6,080 nt of DNA from Candidatus Parcubacteria bacterium (GTDB lineage: Bacteria; Patescibacteriota; Minisyncoccia; Phycocordibacterales; PALSA-1337). Location of the stretch: NCBI GenBank assembly GCA_023264475.1, contig JAHFMA010000033.1, positions 1-6,080 of the forward strand. Direction: 5' to 3'. The notes below the pieces were generated by a model. The model searched no databases. It saw nothing but the letters and a program-made list of their open reading frames with translations, and was not told the DNA's origin. Position 1 is the first letter of the stretch. Each line of letters starts with the position of its first letter. Shown in pieces: positions 1 through 5,574 of this stretch. The position numbers were made by a program, and so were the translations under genes.

Positions 1-2255
1 TCCTGCGCTTCGCCCATGACAATCACATCTTTACCACCACTCGCGGATCGGCCGCCGGCTCATTCGTGTCATATCTCACGGGCATCGTGAACGTCGACCC
101 GATCTATTTCAACCTGCCGTTCGAGCGCTTCCTCAACCCTGACCGCCCTTCGGCTCCCGATATCGATATGGATATCGCCGATAACCGTCGCGACGAGATG
201 ATCGCTTATGCCCGCCAGAAGTACGGCGCCGACCACGTGGCCCAGATCGGCACCTTCGGCACCATGCTCGCGCGCGGCTCTGTGCGAGACGTGGCTCGCG
301 CTATGGGCTTCGGCTTCGAAGTCGGCGACCGCATCTCCAAGCTCATCCCGCTAGGCGCCCAAGGCTTCCCCATGACGCTCGAGAGGGCCATGAAGGAAGT
401 GCCGGAGATTCAGACCATGTACGACCAAGAGCCGGACACCCGCCGGGTCATCGATATGGCCAAGAAGATCGAGGGCTGTGCCCGCCATATCAGCGTGCAT
501 GCCGCTGGCGTGGTCATCGCGCCCGCCCCGCTCGTGGAATATACCCCGCTCCAGCTCGACCCCAAGGGCGAAGGCAAGATCATCACCCAATACGATATGT
601 ACGCCATTGAGGAGGCCGGCCTCCTCAAGCTCGACTTCCTGGGCATCCGCAACCTGGCTATCCTGGCCGACGCCGTGGATCGTGTGAAGCGCATCGAAGG
701 TATCGATATTGATATCGATACGGTGCCGCTCGACGACAAGAAGACCTTCGACATGCTGGCGCGCGGCGAGACCATCGGCCTATTCCAGCTCAATGGCTCC
801 GGCATGACGCGCTACCTCATCGACCTCAAGCCGACGGTCATCCACGATATCAACCTGATGATCGCTCTGTACCGCCCGGGCCCGATGGACAACATCAACG
901 AATACATCCAGCGCAAGAATGGCCTGAAGCCCGTGACCTACCCGCACCCTTCCATGAAGAAATTCTTGGAGCCGACCTACGGCGTGATGGTGTATCAGGA
1001 CGACCTCCTCATGACCGCCATCGAAGTCGCCGGCTATACCTGGGCAGAGGTAGACAAGTTCCGCAAAGCCGTGGGCAAGAAGATCCCGGAGGAGATGGCC
1101 AAACAGCACAAGACCTTCGTGGCCGGAGCCGTTAAACACGGCGGCCTCACCGAGAAGAAGGCGGAGGCGATCTGGAACCTATTCGAGCCGTTCCAGGGCT
1201 ACGGCTTCAACAAGGCTCACGCGGCCTCGTACGGCAAAGTGGCCTATCAGACGGCCTACATGAAGGCGAACTTCCCGGAGATCTATATGTCGGCGGTCCT
1301 ATCTGCCGAATCAGGCGACACGGAGATGATCGGTGAGATCGTCACGGAATGCCGCCGCATGGGCGTGCCAGTCTTGCCGCCGGATGTTAATGAAAGTTTT
1401 AGCCAATTCACAGTAGTGAAGGGTGCGCCGGCGGGAGACGTTCCGGAGCGAGCATTGCCGGAGGCAGGTACCACGAAACCAGAACCGCTACAGAATGATG
1501 GTGCTCGCGGAGGAACGTCTCCCGCCGGCGCGCATCGTATCCGTTTTGGTCTTGTCACGATCAAGAACTTTGGCCAAGGCGTAGCGAGCGCGATCATCGA
1601 GGAGCGCAAGCGCGCCGGCGCGTTCAAGTCGCTCGCGGATTTCCTGGACCGCGTCAAAGATCGCAACCTCAACAAGAAGTCGCTTGAGGCCCTGATCAAG
1701 TCCGGCGCGCTGGATTGCTTCGGCGAAGAGCGCGGCGCTATGCTCGCCAACATGGACCTCCTGCTCGAATACAACAAGGAGGGCGAGGACCGCCACAGCG
1801 ACCAGGATTCGCTCTTCGGCGGCATGAGCGACGCTTCGAGCGTCCCTGCCCTGCACCGCGCGCCGGCGCCGGAAGCGGACATGCGCGACAAGCTGGCTTG
1901 GGAGAAGGATCTTCTAGGCCTCTACATCTCCGGCCACCCGCTCGAGAGATACCGCGAGACGATCGCCAAGAAGGATATGGACATCAAGAAAGCCAAAGAA
2001 GGCAAGGAAGGTGTGGGTGTCGTCCTAGCCATTATCGTGACCGCCGTGCGCACCGTCCAGACCAAGAATAATGAGACTATGGCCTTCCTGACCATTTCTG
2101 ATTTCTCCGGCGAATCCGATGCCGTGGTCTTCCCTAGGACCTACAAGGAATTGCACACCATCCTCGTGCCAGATGCTTGTCTCGCCATCAAAGCCACCAT
2201 GAATGTCAGAAATGGCGAGAAGAGCTTCGTGATCGAGAGGGCGAGGAAACTGTAA
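1..2255 (+). CDS. dnaE: DNA polymerase III alpha subunit, 5'-truncated by window edge
   Basis: Replicative polymerase subunit that extends DNA from dNTPs. The frame is open from base 3, so the gene starts outside the window; roughly the first 350 residues (PHP domain and the start of the palm) are missing, judging from E. coli alpha. Visible in order: RGSAAGS at the left edge; the catalytic palm motif PDIDMD (159-173), whose second and third Asp codons (165, 171) match E. coli D401 and D403; the third catalytic Asp in LDFLG (codon 633); HAAGVVIAP; ALYRPGPMD; the fingers motif FNKAHAASYG; a tandem helix-hairpin-helix region near IRFGLVTIKNFG; and an OB fold just before the stop. It ends soon after the OB fold, without the long C-terminal tau-binding region of E. 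coli. The GTG at 66 lies inside the conserved core and is not a real start. Oddity: a 36-codon in-frame block (1425-1532) bounded by inverted repeats, listed separately. Confidence 0.97.
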   Translation, partial: LRFAHDNHIFTTTRGSAAGSFVSYLTGIVNVDPIYFNLPFERFLNPDRPSAPDIDMDIADNRRDEMIAYARQKYGADHVAQIGTFGTMLARGSVRDVARAMGFGFEVGDRISKLIPLGAQGFPMTLERAMKEVPEIQTMYDQEPDTRRVIDMAKKIEGCARHISVHAAGVVIAPAPLVEYTPLQLDPKGEGKIITQYDMYAIEEAGLLKLDFLGIRNLAILADAVDRVKRIEGIDIDIDTVPLDDKKTFDMLARGETIGLFQLNGSGMTRYLIDLKPTVIHDINLMIALYRPGPMDNINEYIQRKNGLKPVTYPHPSMKKFLEPTYGVMVYQDDLLMTAIEVAGYTWAEVDKFRKAVGKKIPEEMAKQHKTFVAGAVKHGGLTEKKAEAIWNLFEPFQGYGFNKAHAASYGKVAYQTAYMKANFPEIYMSAVLSAESGDTEMIGEIVTECRRMGVPVLPPDVNESFSQFTVVKGAPAGDVPERALPEAGTTKPEPLQNDGARGGTSPAGAHRIRFGLVTIKNFGQGVASAIIEERKRAGAFKSLADFLDRVKDRNLNKKSLEALIKSGALDCFGEERGAMLANMDLLLEYNKEGEDRHSDQDSLFGGMSDASSVPALHRAPAPEADMRDKLAWEKDLLGLYISGHPLERYRETIAKKDMDIKKAKEGKEGVGVVLAIIVTAVRTVQTKNNETMAFLTISDFSGESDAVVFPRTYKELHTILVPDACLAIKATMNVRNGEKSFVIERARKL
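1425..1532. repeat. Palindromic in-frame insertion element inside dnaE
   Basis: Two 20-bp arms are perfect reverse complements: 1425-1444 (begins GCGCCGGCGGGAG) and 1512-1531 (ends CCCGCCGGCGC). After a 3x3 mismatch the pairing resumes for 7 bp (GCGAGCA 1448-1454 with TGCTCGC 1502-1508). The interior (about 1455-1501) has a small TGCC/GGCA hairpin at 1456-1466. The block is 36 codons, in frame, and adds a Pro/Gly/Ala-rich peptide (APAGDVP at the start, GTSPAGA at the end) between the segment ending FTVVKG and HRIRFGL. In DnaE proteins I know, these are joined by a short turn. The family of this element is not recognised; Rickettsia palindromic elements are a precedent for the type of event. 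It could instead be a locally expanded loop, but a 20-bp perfect inverted repeat is hard to explain that way. Confidence 0.75.
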
Positions 2256-2832: not shown

Positions 2833-3366
2833 TTATTTTTCTTCCTTATTCTTGTTTGGTATTTGAGAATAATCAAACTCAAGCAAATATATGTTTATTA
2901 ATCTATTCTCTTCCCCATCCTTGTAAATGATCATTCCCTGACAAACATTTTTCCAAAATGGCATTGGAAAATGCTTTCGATTGGCCGTAAGCAGTAAGGC
3001 ACCCCTGTGGTAAACCACAGTTCCGGCAATGATAATGTCCATTGATTCAATGCTCTTGTATCCAGTGATTCCCTTATTTGAATAGACATGATAGAGGTAT
3101 GAGCCGCTCATAATGATCTCTTTGGTGATAGGAATATTATCGATATAGGTTATAAGAGAAAAACAATATTCCCGGAGCTTTTCGTCGATTGCATTCTTTA
3201 TAAGCTCAAAACAGGTAGCAAAAGATACGGCAAGATCGTTGCCGTTGTCCTTGAGGGTACGCAAAAGGCCCTTAGCTTGATGTCCAAATTCCTTGTTTCC
3301 ACAGTAAACAAGGATATTCGTATCTACAAGTACTCTAGTGTTTTTTATCGCTCTGAACTGATCCAT
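2833..3366 (-). CDS. PIN-domain ribonuclease, likely VapC-type toxin
   Basis: A 177-residue PIN-domain protein; such proteins are Mg2+-dependent ribonucleases. Visible acidic-site residues in order: Asp15 and Asn17 in LVDTNILVY, Glu54 in ATCFELIKN, Asp110 in SMDIIIAGTVVY, and the late TANRKHF motif (Thr127, Asn129). All positions expected for catalysis are present. It is longer than the usual 130-140-residue VapC, with an extra C-terminal stretch of about 40 residues ending in a charged tail (NKNKEEK). The start at 3366 overlaps the end of the upstream small gene by 32 nt, the classic layout of an antitoxin-toxin pair, and no clear Shine-Dalgarno site is present, which suggests translational coupling. 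AT-richer than dnaE and thrS, consistent with horizontal gain. A non-TA PIN nuclease remains possible because the partner is not of a recognised family. Confidence 0.85.
   Translation of the reverse strand: MDQFRAIKNTRVLVDTNILVYCGNKEFGHQAKGLLRTLKDNGNDLAVSFATCFELIKNAIDEKLREYCFSLITYIDNIPITKEIIMSGSYLYHVYSNKGITGYKSIESMDIIIAGTVVYHRGALLLTANRKHFPMPFWKNVCQGMIIYKDGEENRLINIYLLEFDYSQIPNKNKEEK
2841..2847 (-). promoter_or_regulatory. Shine-Dalgarno site AAGGAAG for the MGMT-family gene
   Basis: On the minus strand AAGGAAG lies 9 nt before ATG 2831, inside the last codons of the PIN-domain gene. It decides the start at 2831 and fits reinitiation by ribosomes finishing the PIN gene. Confidence 0.75.
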
Positions 3367-3520
3367 CGTTCTGTTTTGCTATGTATGAATCTGGCATTCT
3401 CTCGACCTTATCTGGTGTAAGCTCAATATTGTTGCCCTGAAGCAGCCTCTCAAGAGCAGGCATATCGGTGCCTTTTCCCCATGATTTATCATTAGTTTTT
3501 TCAATATATAGAGTATTCAT
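3335..3520 (-). CDS. Small protein upstream of PIN gene, candidate antitoxin
   Basis: A 61-residue, hydrophilic protein of no family I recognise. It has no visible ribbon-helix-helix, AbrB or Phd fold. Central segment: DMPALERLLQGNNIELTPDKVERMPDSYI, suggesting one helix followed by a short strand/turn region, then a polar tail (QNDGSVQSDKKH). Position is the main evidence: it is directly upstream of a PIN-domain gene, on the same strand, overlapping it by 32 nt. The likely start is ATG 3520. No Shine-Dalgarno site is visible, and a possible extended -10 box lies only 10 nt upstream, so the message may be leaderless or nearly so. It could also be an uncharacterised protein that only shares the transcript. 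Confidence 0.6.
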   Translation of the reverse strand: MNTLYIEKTNDKSWGKGTDMPALERLLQGNNIELTPDKVERMPDSYIAKQNDGSVQSDKKH

Positions 3521-3529
3521 GATGCATCA

Positions 3530-3538
3530 ATTGTATCA
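3530..3538 (-). promoter_or_regulatory. Possible extended -10 promoter of the antitoxin-PIN-MGMT operon
   Basis: On the minus strand 3538-3530 reads TGATACAAT, an extended -10 (TGn plus TACAAT). A poor -35 match (TTGTCC, 3551-3556) sits 15 nt upstream. Predicted transcription would begin within a few bases of ATG 3520. The match is short and unverified. Confidence 0.4.
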
Positions 3539-3558
3539 CCATAATGGCTAGGACAATA

Positions 3559-3589
3559 TTGACCGATTGCCAATCATATTCTTTATTAT
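3559..3589 (+). promoter_or_regulatory. thrS: Possible promoter for the T-box leader and thrS
   Basis: TTGACC (3559-3564) could be a -35 box, with TTTATT (3582-3587, 17-nt spacing) or TATTAT (3584-3589, 19-nt spacing) as -10. It is the best candidate upstream of the riboswitch but imperfect. It would place the start roughly 40 nt before the first structured element, and the region would be divergent from the operon at 3520. Confidence 0.35.
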
Positions 3590-3733
3590 TTGAGTTATGA
3601 AAAAAACATTTAACATGCTAACATTGAGGTCATCAGAGATTGCTGCGGTCACCAACCGCAACGGCCAAGAACGAGGATCCGGCCGAGGCAATAGGCCCTA
3701 ATCTGAGCAATGAGCGCCCGTAATATACGGGAA

Positions 3734-3768
3734 GTCAGGTGGAACCACGGTCTCTAGATCGCCCTGAC
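3734..3768 (+). promoter_or_regulatory. T-box antiterminator
   Basis: Helix A1: GTCAGG (3734-3739) with CCTGAC (3763-3768). The bulge TGGAACC (3740-3746) is the tRNA acceptor-end binding site. Helix A2: CGGTC (3748-3752) with GATCG (3757-3761), including one G-U pair, closed by a TCTA loop. This is the expected antiterminator layout. The 3' strand of A1 is shared with the terminator stem, so the two are mutually exclusive. Confidence 0.85.
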
Positions 3769-3810
3769 AAAGTCACGATTCACTTCGCGATTTTGTCAGG
3801 ACGATTTTTT
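3759..3810 (+). terminator. Rho-independent terminator of the T-box leader
   Basis: CCTGACAAA (3763-3771) pairs with TTTGTCAGG (3792-3800). The stem extends below by TCG/CGA after one C-A mismatch and above by TCACGA/TCGCGA with one mismatch. Six T residues follow at 3805-3810. Formation uses the 3' strands of the antiterminator, giving an off state when tRNA is charged. Confidence 0.9.
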
Positions 3811-3831: not shown

Positions 3832-5574
3832 ATGGCCTCCCTCGAACACATCCGTCACACCCTCGCCCACCTCATGGCCGCCGCCGTCTTGGAGCTCTAT
3901 CCCGAGGCCAAGCCGACCATCGGCCCCGCTATCGACAACGGCTTCTATTACGACTTCGAGTTCCCCGCCGACAAGCGCCCGACCGAGAAGGAGCTCAAGG
4001 ATATCGAGAAGAAAATGCGCAAGCTCCTCCCTTCATGGAAGGAAATGACTGGAAAGGAAGTCGCATACGACGAGGCGAAAGTTTTCTTTAAAGACAACCC
4101 CTTTAAGAATGAACTCATAAGAGACATCCGTGACAAGGGCGAAAAGATGACGTTCTACACGGCTGGCAAGTTTACTGATCTTTGTCGTGGAGGCCATGTG
4201 GAAAATCCAGCTAAAGACATTCCATCTGACTCTTTTGAGCTTTCTCACATTGCAGGAGCGTACTGGAGAGGTGATGAAAAACAACCAATGCTAACTCGCA
4301 TCTATGGTTTAGCCTTCAATTCAAAGGAGGAATTGGACTCCTACAATAAAATGATGGTTGAGGCCGAGAAGCGCGACCACAAGAAGCTCGGCAAGGAGCT
4401 CAAACTCTTCACGACTTCCCCGCTCATCGGTTCCGGCCTGCCGCTCCTCCAGCCCAATGGCATGATCATCCGCAAAGAGATCGAGGACTATCTCTGGGAG
4501 CTCCACAAGGATCATGGCTACAGCCGCGTCTGGACCCCGCATATCGCCAAGGAAGACCTATATATCACTTCCGGCCATGCCGCCAAGTTCGGCGATGAGC
4601 TCTTCCGCGTCCAAGGCAAAGAAGAGAAGTTCATCATGAAGCCCATGAATTGCCCGCACCATATGCAGATATTCGCGGACAATCAGTTCTCGTACCGCGA
4701 CATGCCGGTGCGCTATTTCGAGCCAGCCACGGTCTATCGCGACGAGAAGTCCGGCCAGCTCGCCGGCCTCACCCGCGTACGCGCTATCACGCAGGATGAC
4801 GGTCACCTCTTCTGCCGCCAGAGCCAGATCAGCGCCGAGGTCGTTACGATCATCGGCATCATCAAAGCCTTCTACACGACCATGGGCATGCTGGATGGTT
4901 ATTGGGTGCGCCTCTCCACTAGAGGCGCTGACAAGAGCGCCTATATCGGCTCTGACGAGATTTGGAGCACTGCCGAGAAGGCCCTCGAGGACACAGCTGT
5001 GGCCAACAAGCTCAACTGGAAGCCGGGACCGGGCGAAGCCGCCTTCTACGGCCCCAAGCTCGACTTTATGTTCAAGGACGCCATCGGCCGTGAATGGCAG
5101 CTTGCCACCATCCAATGCGACTTCAACCTGCCGGAGCGCTTTGACCTTTCCTTCGTGCACGAGAAGGGCGAAAAGGAGCGCCCAGTCGTCATCCACCGCG
5201 CCATCTCGGGATCACTAGAGCGATTCATGGGCGTGATGATCGAGCACTATGCCGGCAACTTCCCTCTCTGGCTCTCGCCGGTGCAGGTCAAGGTGATCCC
5301 TGTCGCTGAGGCTCACGCCGATGCCGCTGCCAAGATCCGCGAGTCTTTGCGCAAAGCCGGCATCCGCGCCACGCTCGATGACAGCAACGATAGCTTCGGC
5401 AAGAAGATAAGGAACGCCAAAACAGCCCATATCCCTTATTTCATCATTATGGGTGAAAAGGACATCTCCGCCGACAAAGTCACCCTAGAATCCCGCGATA
5501 AAGGCCAGATCGGACAGCTCTCTGCCGATGAAGTCATGAAGATGCTCGCCGAGGAGATCAAAGAGAGGAAGTAG
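3832..5574 (+). CDS. thrS: Threonyl-tRNA synthetase lacking the TGS domain
   Basis: Class II synthetase that charges tRNA-Thr with threonine in the cytoplasm. 580 residues, shorter than the roughly 640 of E. coli because the N-terminal TGS domain is absent. The editing domain starts at once: HxxxH as His9 and His13 in RHTLAH, and CRGGH with Cys118 and His122. Catalytic core: motif 1 region around 203-237; zinc ligands Cys274 (MNCPHH), His325 (QDDGHLFC) and His455 (VIHRA); motif 2 Arg303 in VYRDEKSG; motif 3 Arg464 in GSLERFMG. The anticodon-binding domain is at about 485-580 (VQVKVIPV to the end). An in-frame stop just upstream leaves ATG 3832 as the only plausible start, yet no Shine-Dalgarno site is visible before it. 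Expression is likely controlled by the T-box leader. Base composition changes abruptly within the gene (see 4040-4350). Confidence 0.97.
   Translation: MASLEHIRHTLAHLMAAAVLELYPEAKPTIGPAIDNGFYYDFEFPADKRPTEKELKDIEKKMRKLLPSWKEMTGKEVAYDEAKVFFKDNPFKNELIRDIRDKGEKMTFYTAGKFTDLCRGGHVENPAKDIPSDSFELSHIAGAYWRGDEKQPMLTRIYGLAFNSKEELDSYNKMMVEAEKRDHKKLGKELKLFTTSPLIGSGLPLLQPNGMIIRKEIEDYLWELHKDHGYSRVWTPHIAKEDLYITSGHAAKFGDELFRVQGKEEKFIMKPMNCPHHMQIFADNQFSYRDMPVRYFEPATVYRDEKSGQLAGLTRVRAITQDDGHLFCRQSQISAEVVTIIGIIKAFYTTMGMLDGYWVRLSTRGADKSAYIGSDEIWSTAEKALEDTAVANKLNWKPGPGEAAFYGPKLDFMFKDAIGREWQLATIQCDFNLPERFDLSFVHEKGEKERPVVIHRAISGSLERFMGVMIEHYAGNFPLWLSPVQVKVIPVAEAHADAAAKIRESLRKAGIRATLDDSNDSFGKKIRNAKTAHIPYFIIMGEKDISADKVTLESRDKGQIGQLSADEVMKMLAEEIKERK
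4040..4350 (+). other. AT-rich, codon-shifted patch inside thrS
   Basis: Counted 60-base blocks give 63% GC at 3841-3900, 40% at 4081-4140, 43% at 4201-4260, 40% at 4261-4320 and 58% at 4381-4440. Codons shift from C/G-ending to A/T-ending (for example TTT, AAA, GAA, TCT, CCA, CTA, TTA) and then back. The patch covers residues about 70-173, including the editing-site CRGGH. The reading frame and protein motifs are intact. The inferred explanation is homologous replacement from a lower-GC relative; selection on local mRNA properties is an alternative. Confidence 0.65.

Follow-up and report, generated by a model that had tools for sequence, protein, structure and literature searches.

How does a palindrome come to lie in frame inside a DNA polymerase gene, and how do its two arms come to match each other? 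The best descriptions of in-frame palindromes come from Rickettsia and Wolbachia, and the way in which they insert is, to our knowledge, unsettled. Here, we analyzed a stretch of 6,080 nucleotides (the window) from a Candidatus Parcubacteria bacterium, part of contig C28 of a 463-kb assembly in 75 contigs that is 70% complete, together with related genomes. The organism belongs to a genus of small-genome Patescibacteria with many in-frame palindromes in core replication and repair genes. In-frame palindromes themselves are known; what is new here is the copy-specific arms, with a branched, covarying core as a further difference, and common cores between copy-specific arms provide a handle on the origin of such palindromes.

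The dnaE block and its core

The window opens within dnaE, the gene for DNA polymerase III alpha, whose 5' part is missing at the window edge. The remaining open frame (positions 3 to 2255, plus strand, 750 codons) matches the Pfam domains DNA_pol3_alpha, DNA_pol3_finger (residues 217 to 380), HHH_6 (454 to 579), and an OB-fold. Inside it, positions 1425 to 1532 (plus strand) form a palindromic block of 108 bp that occupies exactly codons 475 to 510, encodes the peptide APAGDVPERALPEAGTTKPEPLQNDGARGGTSPAGA, and leaves the 750-residue frame open. A sequence-only reading of this DNA had described such a block, and its geometry was borne out. The left arm (1425 to 1444) pairs perfectly over 20 nt with the right arm (1512 to 1531); there follows a 3-by-3 purine mismatch, with GGA at 1445 to 1447 opposite GGA at 1509 to 1511 (GAA in the tsaD copy described below), and then seven further pairs between the inner stem GCGAGCA (1448 to 1454) and 1502 to 1508. 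Taken whole, the arms (1425 to 1454 and 1502 to 1531) are 30 nt long, 90% complementary, and 47 nt apart. Between them lies a small hairpin, TGCC-GGA-GGCA (1456 to 1466), recognized from the sequence, the predicted folds, and the structure of model R2; the arms, left mismatch half, inner stem, and hairpin are all given on the plus strand.

The inverted-repeat score of the block is 21, compared with a maximum of 14 in 300 locally shuffled windows and of 18 in 300 synonymous-codon shuffles of the dnaE piece. Folding of the RNA, which the same reading had proposed, gave a predicted −70.8 kcal/mol, and in a scan of eight sources no Rfam family matched the block at an E value of 0.1. The 36-residue segment that the reading had recognized is there as described, although it lies inside the helix-hairpin-helix domain (HHH_6) and not just before it. 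An AlphaFold model, weak overall (mean pLDDT, 60.8) and used solely to place the block, puts it in a turn or loop between strands 469 to 473 and 511 to 515, with residues 481 to 510 (block means of 25 to 34 pLDDT) among the lowest-scoring parts.

The block is extra sequence that close relatives lack. The loop between FTVV and IRFG, measurable in 115 of the 120 DnaE homologues listed, spans 6 to 91 residues; the record names on these relatives include Candidatus Taylorbacteria, Paceibacterota, and Parcubacteria. In P0121, a homologue with 84% identity, this loop measures 13 residues, compared with 40 in the window gene. Within the genus, the dnaE loop carries an inverted repeat with a score of at least 12 in 13 of 31 rows (our genome included, one row incomplete, and rows L035 and L036 left out of the table), with arms that differ from copy to copy (for example, 33 perfect pairs in genome G022 and 30 in G011), and in three rows nothing but EGDKS or DGEKS separates FTVIK from RIRFG. 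By eye, a single DNA element, read from its two strands, accounts for both loop peptides PPRRTVSGSAEPAPRSHSPSLAPK and RLSEGAKATENEV, and homologues P0124 and P0126 resemble the window core, a likeness judged from peptides only. The Rfam scan also gave a weak microRNA hit to the dnaE palindrome of G022, which at 46.7 bits fell short of the gathering score (94) and was discounted as a chance resemblance between hairpins. Separately, the DnaE loops of P0143, P0180, P0238, and L016 hold peptides such as VIPAKAGIQ...LDPRLRGDD and PPFSKGE, which we take to be translations of widespread repeats.

A second copy of the core surfaced in the protein search for DnaE, in frame in tsaD of the same genome. 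The conserved core (1443 to 1513, plus strand) is 84.5% identical between the two copies over 71 nt, and its first 30 nt, CCGGAGCGAGCATTGCCGGAGGCAGGTACC, are the same in both. Both host frames are open and the core is common to them, but the arms are not: those of the tsaD copy (22 perfect pairs) have a sequence unlike the dnaE arms, and the 18 nt adjoining the core agree at 5 of 18 positions, which is chance level. The sequence-only reading had taken the arm as the possible mark of an element family, to be searched for in this genome and its relatives. Allowing up to three mismatches, the arm had no match in the 70%-complete assembly beyond its own two arms (a backwards control gave one match); none of the other 33 genomes of the genus contained an exact 15-base piece of it, and none of the other 52 of the family an exact 12-base piece. 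On these pattern searches, which gave no further copy, we rejected the arm as a family mark. Since the arm has no other copy while the core recurs in tsaD between other arms, the repeated part is the core. Two copies of it are found in the 70%-complete assembly; a DNA search of 383 class genomes at an E value of 0.001 returned these two only, and a covariance model built from them found no third among the 34 genus genomes.

A copy of the core exists and the segment is missing from relatives, the reverse of what had been named as telling against an inserted element. The proposed likeness to the Rickettsia palindromic elements (RPE) is supported in part: the in-frame position, the absence from close relatives, and the architecture agree with it, and the open-licence library searched gave no description of this element, whereas the arm as its family mark needed correction. 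RPE and their Wolbachia counterparts (WPE) are described as genome-repeated palindromes of about 100 to 150 bp whose in-frame insertions into conserved genes fall in solvent-exposed regions (PMC2229807, PMC3767692, PMC3733652), and one protein carrying an in-frame palindrome of this type is reported to be active (PMC2229807). Compared by architecture, the window element is alike in being palindromic (108 bp, 20-bp perfect arms), in having a core repeated in dnaE and tsaD, and in lying in frame in conserved genes from which relatives lack it; it is unlike them in that its copies share the core and not the arms, and in its Patescibacterial host. REP/RAYT elements are likewise short palindromes, some intragenic and some reported at nearly the same place in orthologous genes (PMC3733652), but they bear GTAG or CGTC tags, whereas direct reading of our two copies shows neither tag at their ends, and they differ from the present core of about 71 nt with its branched predicted fold and copy-specific arms. 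Among the open-licence papers listed, none appears to describe such elements in Patescibacteria.

The palindrome in tsaD may be older than the core now inside it, because the tsaD relatives P0003 and P0013 have AGM...IPA residues at both arm positions. Genome G018 holds another element family common to tsaD and dnaE (L067 and L034), with 70% identity over 139 nt, a pair that parallels the one in the window genome. The window genome also contains a third type of palindrome, at L073:1234-1366 and L074:213-341, with similar-looking cores that include a GC-rich hairpin and with differing arms of 16 and 23 perfect pairs.

The TPE-1 family and its arms

A larger, separate family, TPE-1, was modelled in this analysis (model R1) from the cores of six dnaE copies and is built on the same plan. 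R1 gave 110 matches at an E value of 0.01 in 24 of the 34 genus genomes, five of them in the window genome; the six source copies fall among these matches by construction. Thirteen weak matches (E values of 1.9e-4 to 8.5e-3) are outside every later count, and two duplicates (L137 and L143) were entered once. On the window's own two copies, R1 scores a weak 6.4 and 6.2 bits (E value of about 0.08 in 201 bases), so that the TPE-1 statistics reach the window by analogy only. Outside the genus, TPE-1 is rare, occurring in at least 10 of 284 other class genomes, a lower bound since the wider searches used stricter filters, and in 3 of 378 other genomes of a phylum sample, all three of the same order. 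By a looser, uncontrolled test, 14 of 20 matched loci outside the genus have an inverted repeat near their middle and 6 have none.

Coding genes hold most of these copies: 71 of 97 lie inside an open frame of at least 150 codons with at least 25 codons on each side, where the call took the longest open frame and in at least one case (L124) chose the antisense frame of dnaE. Twenty-five host frames were scanned; their matches include DnaG, UvrB, RecG, PolA, RecO, RadC, and LigA, as well as TopA, UvrA, SecA, IF-2, LeuRS, Tgt, and MnmA, and one of the 25 (L170) had no match. The window genome carries its own copies in dnaG, polA, recO, radC, and a gene for a PMT_2-domain protein. In UvrB of six species, TPE-1 lies between RPI(R/K/Q)E and Y(K/R/L)GQIFDF, where G022 has SKG only, and its orientation at this one site differs between species. 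Two copies share a single topA gene in G024 (L143:996 and 1908), and four lie within 8 kb in G018 (L190). In addition, contig C1 of G022 carries ten more palindromes (L092 to L109), with mostly perfect arms of 39 to 46 nt and loops of 38 to 39 nt; their inner arm is conserved (like GTACTCATTTTCTGTACAAGTTT), their outer 20 nt are copy-specific, and 8 of the 10 are outside open frames of at least 100 codons.

Most TPE-1 copies examined have a common covarying core, paired arms specific to the copy, and no target duplication. A flank-pairing score of at least 10 is reached by 79 of the 97 copies and by 3 of the 477 swapped controls. From 8 to 22 nt outside the core, pairing stands at about 0.8; by 25 nt it has dropped to 0.53 and by 27 nt to 0.37, near the control level of about 0.33, and the left arm ends at 22 to 26 nt in 52 of the 79. 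Of the 18 copies that fail this test, 8 contain a strong inverted repeat whose register differs, and the rest have weak or no arms; the register limit of the script is the reason that it missed several near-identical G018 copies, whose arms reach 35 to 36 nt before and 19 to 20 nt after the modelled core. Arms of copies within one genome are about 0.3 to 0.5 identical. Even in ten copy pairs with cores at least 90% identical, the outer 9 nt show identities of 0.32 and 0.31, at an own arm complementarity of 0.94 that is helped by arm ends defined through pairing. In G018, no two of six copies with cores 81 to 99% identical have the same outer 10 nt; identity there averages 0.36 and reaches 0.70 at most. 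Direct repeats of at least 3 bp outside the arms were found in 2 of 69 copies versus 1.9% expected by chance, with none above chance.

The core itself covaries. Over 97 distinct core rows, 22 of 22 pairs change on both sides, and 92.3% of core cells are paired compared with 68.3% after shuffling and at most 46% after sliding, figures from a structure-fitted alignment that leans this way. In stem P3, copies at least 90% identical differ by 16 two-sided versus 5 one-sided changes in 220 comparisons (not independent), at 0.049 changes per unpaired site; at 80 to 90% identity, there are 146 two-sided versus 67 one-sided changes in 964 comparisons, again not independent. These counts come from stem P3 of TPE-1, not from the arms in the window. 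Among standard pairs, G-T accounts for 1.5% in P3, compared with 6% in inner P1 and 15% in P2. Templating of one arm by the other at the DNA level fits the P3 changes better than stepwise compensation at the RNA level does, and P2 is less clear.

How the arms may have been written

In our reading, to which we give a probability of roughly 55%, a small mobile element probably left the dnaE block behind, and the element's arms were probably written later, one side templating the other. Mobility we infer from the scatter of the copies; the arms would have been written on the DNA itself, through strand switching templated by the hairpin. The element would insert in frame and be kept only where a loop of the host protein tolerates the insertion. 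Its hairpin would then make the polymerase switch strands during DNA synthesis, and the switched polymerase would copy one arm, along with part of the host DNA next to it, inverted, onto the other side, so that each copy would acquire perfect arms of its own and the core could flip between them. The opposite orientations at one site across species are what spacer inversion predicts and are equally expected from separate insertions. Two observations count against simple template switching: it does not predict similar arm-end distances, and the flank-copying step is not generally visible in the TPE-1 codon matches given below.

A precedent exists in yeast genes, where template switching at quasipalindromes is reported to homogenize and lengthen arms and to invert spacers within coding sequence (PMC8604942); the cases described there are short repeats, whereas here the process would act on a repeated element. 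Long, perfect inverted repeats also occur in the mitochondrial genes of Nematomorpha, with arms possibly kept by conversion, but there both arms encode conserved residues, which is not generally so here, and the accessible part of that report mentions no shared core (PMC6649704). If the arms were written by strand switching, these loci would preserve a trace of template switching over evolutionary time and would naturally supply essential enzymes with new peptide segments. A fuller scenario is possible, and we advance it tentatively: mobile palindromes without ends of their own, each landing of which would write arms from local host DNA, inverted, after which strand switching would keep the arms perfect and flip the core, with repeated in-frame settling in the same loops of polymerases, primase, repair enzymes, and tRNA-modifying enzymes throughout the genus.

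Alternatively, the target may have been copied in inverted form at the moment of insertion, a 3' end folding back, priming itself, and copying 10 to 20 nt of flank, so that arms would be made once at a set length and would afterwards only decay. The similar arm ends, the near-identical G018 copies with differing outer arms, and the lack of direct repeats agree with this, and by eye conserved host codons can be read in one arm of the uvrB copy of G007 (GAG GGG AAG GGT, where the empty G022 gene has GAG AGT AAG GGC) and likewise in the dnaE copy of G006 and the tsaD copies of G000 and G018. The script, however, gave the left arm of G007 uvrB a score of 0 of 5, contrary to the reading by eye, and outer arm codons of TPE-1 equal the orthologue consensus at 45 of 282 (left) and 56 of 281 (right) positions, compared with 125 of 285 and 123 of 285 for codons outside the arms. 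A match of at least two codons in five was found in neither arm of 35 of 57 copies, in one arm of 15, and in both arms of 7, which leaves inverted flank copying unsupported as a general rule. Because it also leaves the two-strand changes of the inner stem P3 unexplained, we consider this account unlikely on the whole, though it is a serious competitor.

We give little credence to a MITE- or RPE-like element with terminal repeats that diverge fast while selection on an RNA or DNA hairpin keeps them paired. Strong core covariation and the 15% share of G-T in P2 would suit it, and both RPE and MITEs are described as having terminal inverted repeats and in-frame members (PMC2229807). MITEs resemble the present elements as small inverted-repeat elements that lack a transposase of their own and occur in many places, but terminal inverted repeats are not common to the window copies (5 of 18 arm identity), and in TPE-1 target duplications do not exceed chance (2 of 69). 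Outer arms that are mostly unrelated at cores at least 90% identical argue against this origin, as does P3, where two-sided changes outnumber one-sided ones and G-T is rare, unlike what stepwise compensation at the RNA level would leave.

It is very improbable that the core was inserted into palindromes that already existed in host genes. By eye, the G014 tsaD gene, which lacks the core, shows a short and imperfect inverted repeat where the arms would lie, and leuS copies look native on both sides; the script, however, found no such repeat in G014 at its threshold, palindromes with arms of at least 10 and loops of at most 6 are rare (41 in 358,670 bases of G022), and none with a score of at least 7 was listed for the empty uvrB, dnaG, recG, topA, pyrD, and leuS sites shown. 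An assembly or amplification artefact (a fold-back chimera) is scarcely credible, for although the source assembly is fragmentary and whole-genome amplification yields inverted duplications, the block is in frame, sits at a loop variable in many species, and has its core in common with tsaD, and similar blocks occur in many assemblies, including on a 358-kb contig.

Other features of the window

Downstream of dnaE, positions 2577 to 2882 encode a short protein with a 6-O-methylguanine methyltransferase DNA-binding domain. A PIN-domain-like gene follows at 2833 to 3366 (Pfam match just under the cutoff), and with the small frame that adjoins it, it looks like a toxin-antitoxin pair, the pairing being judged by eye. 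A match resembling a T-box leader (3491 to 3769; 35 bits, below the gathering score of 93) lies just upstream of a threonyl-tRNA synthetase-like gene at 3832 to 5574.
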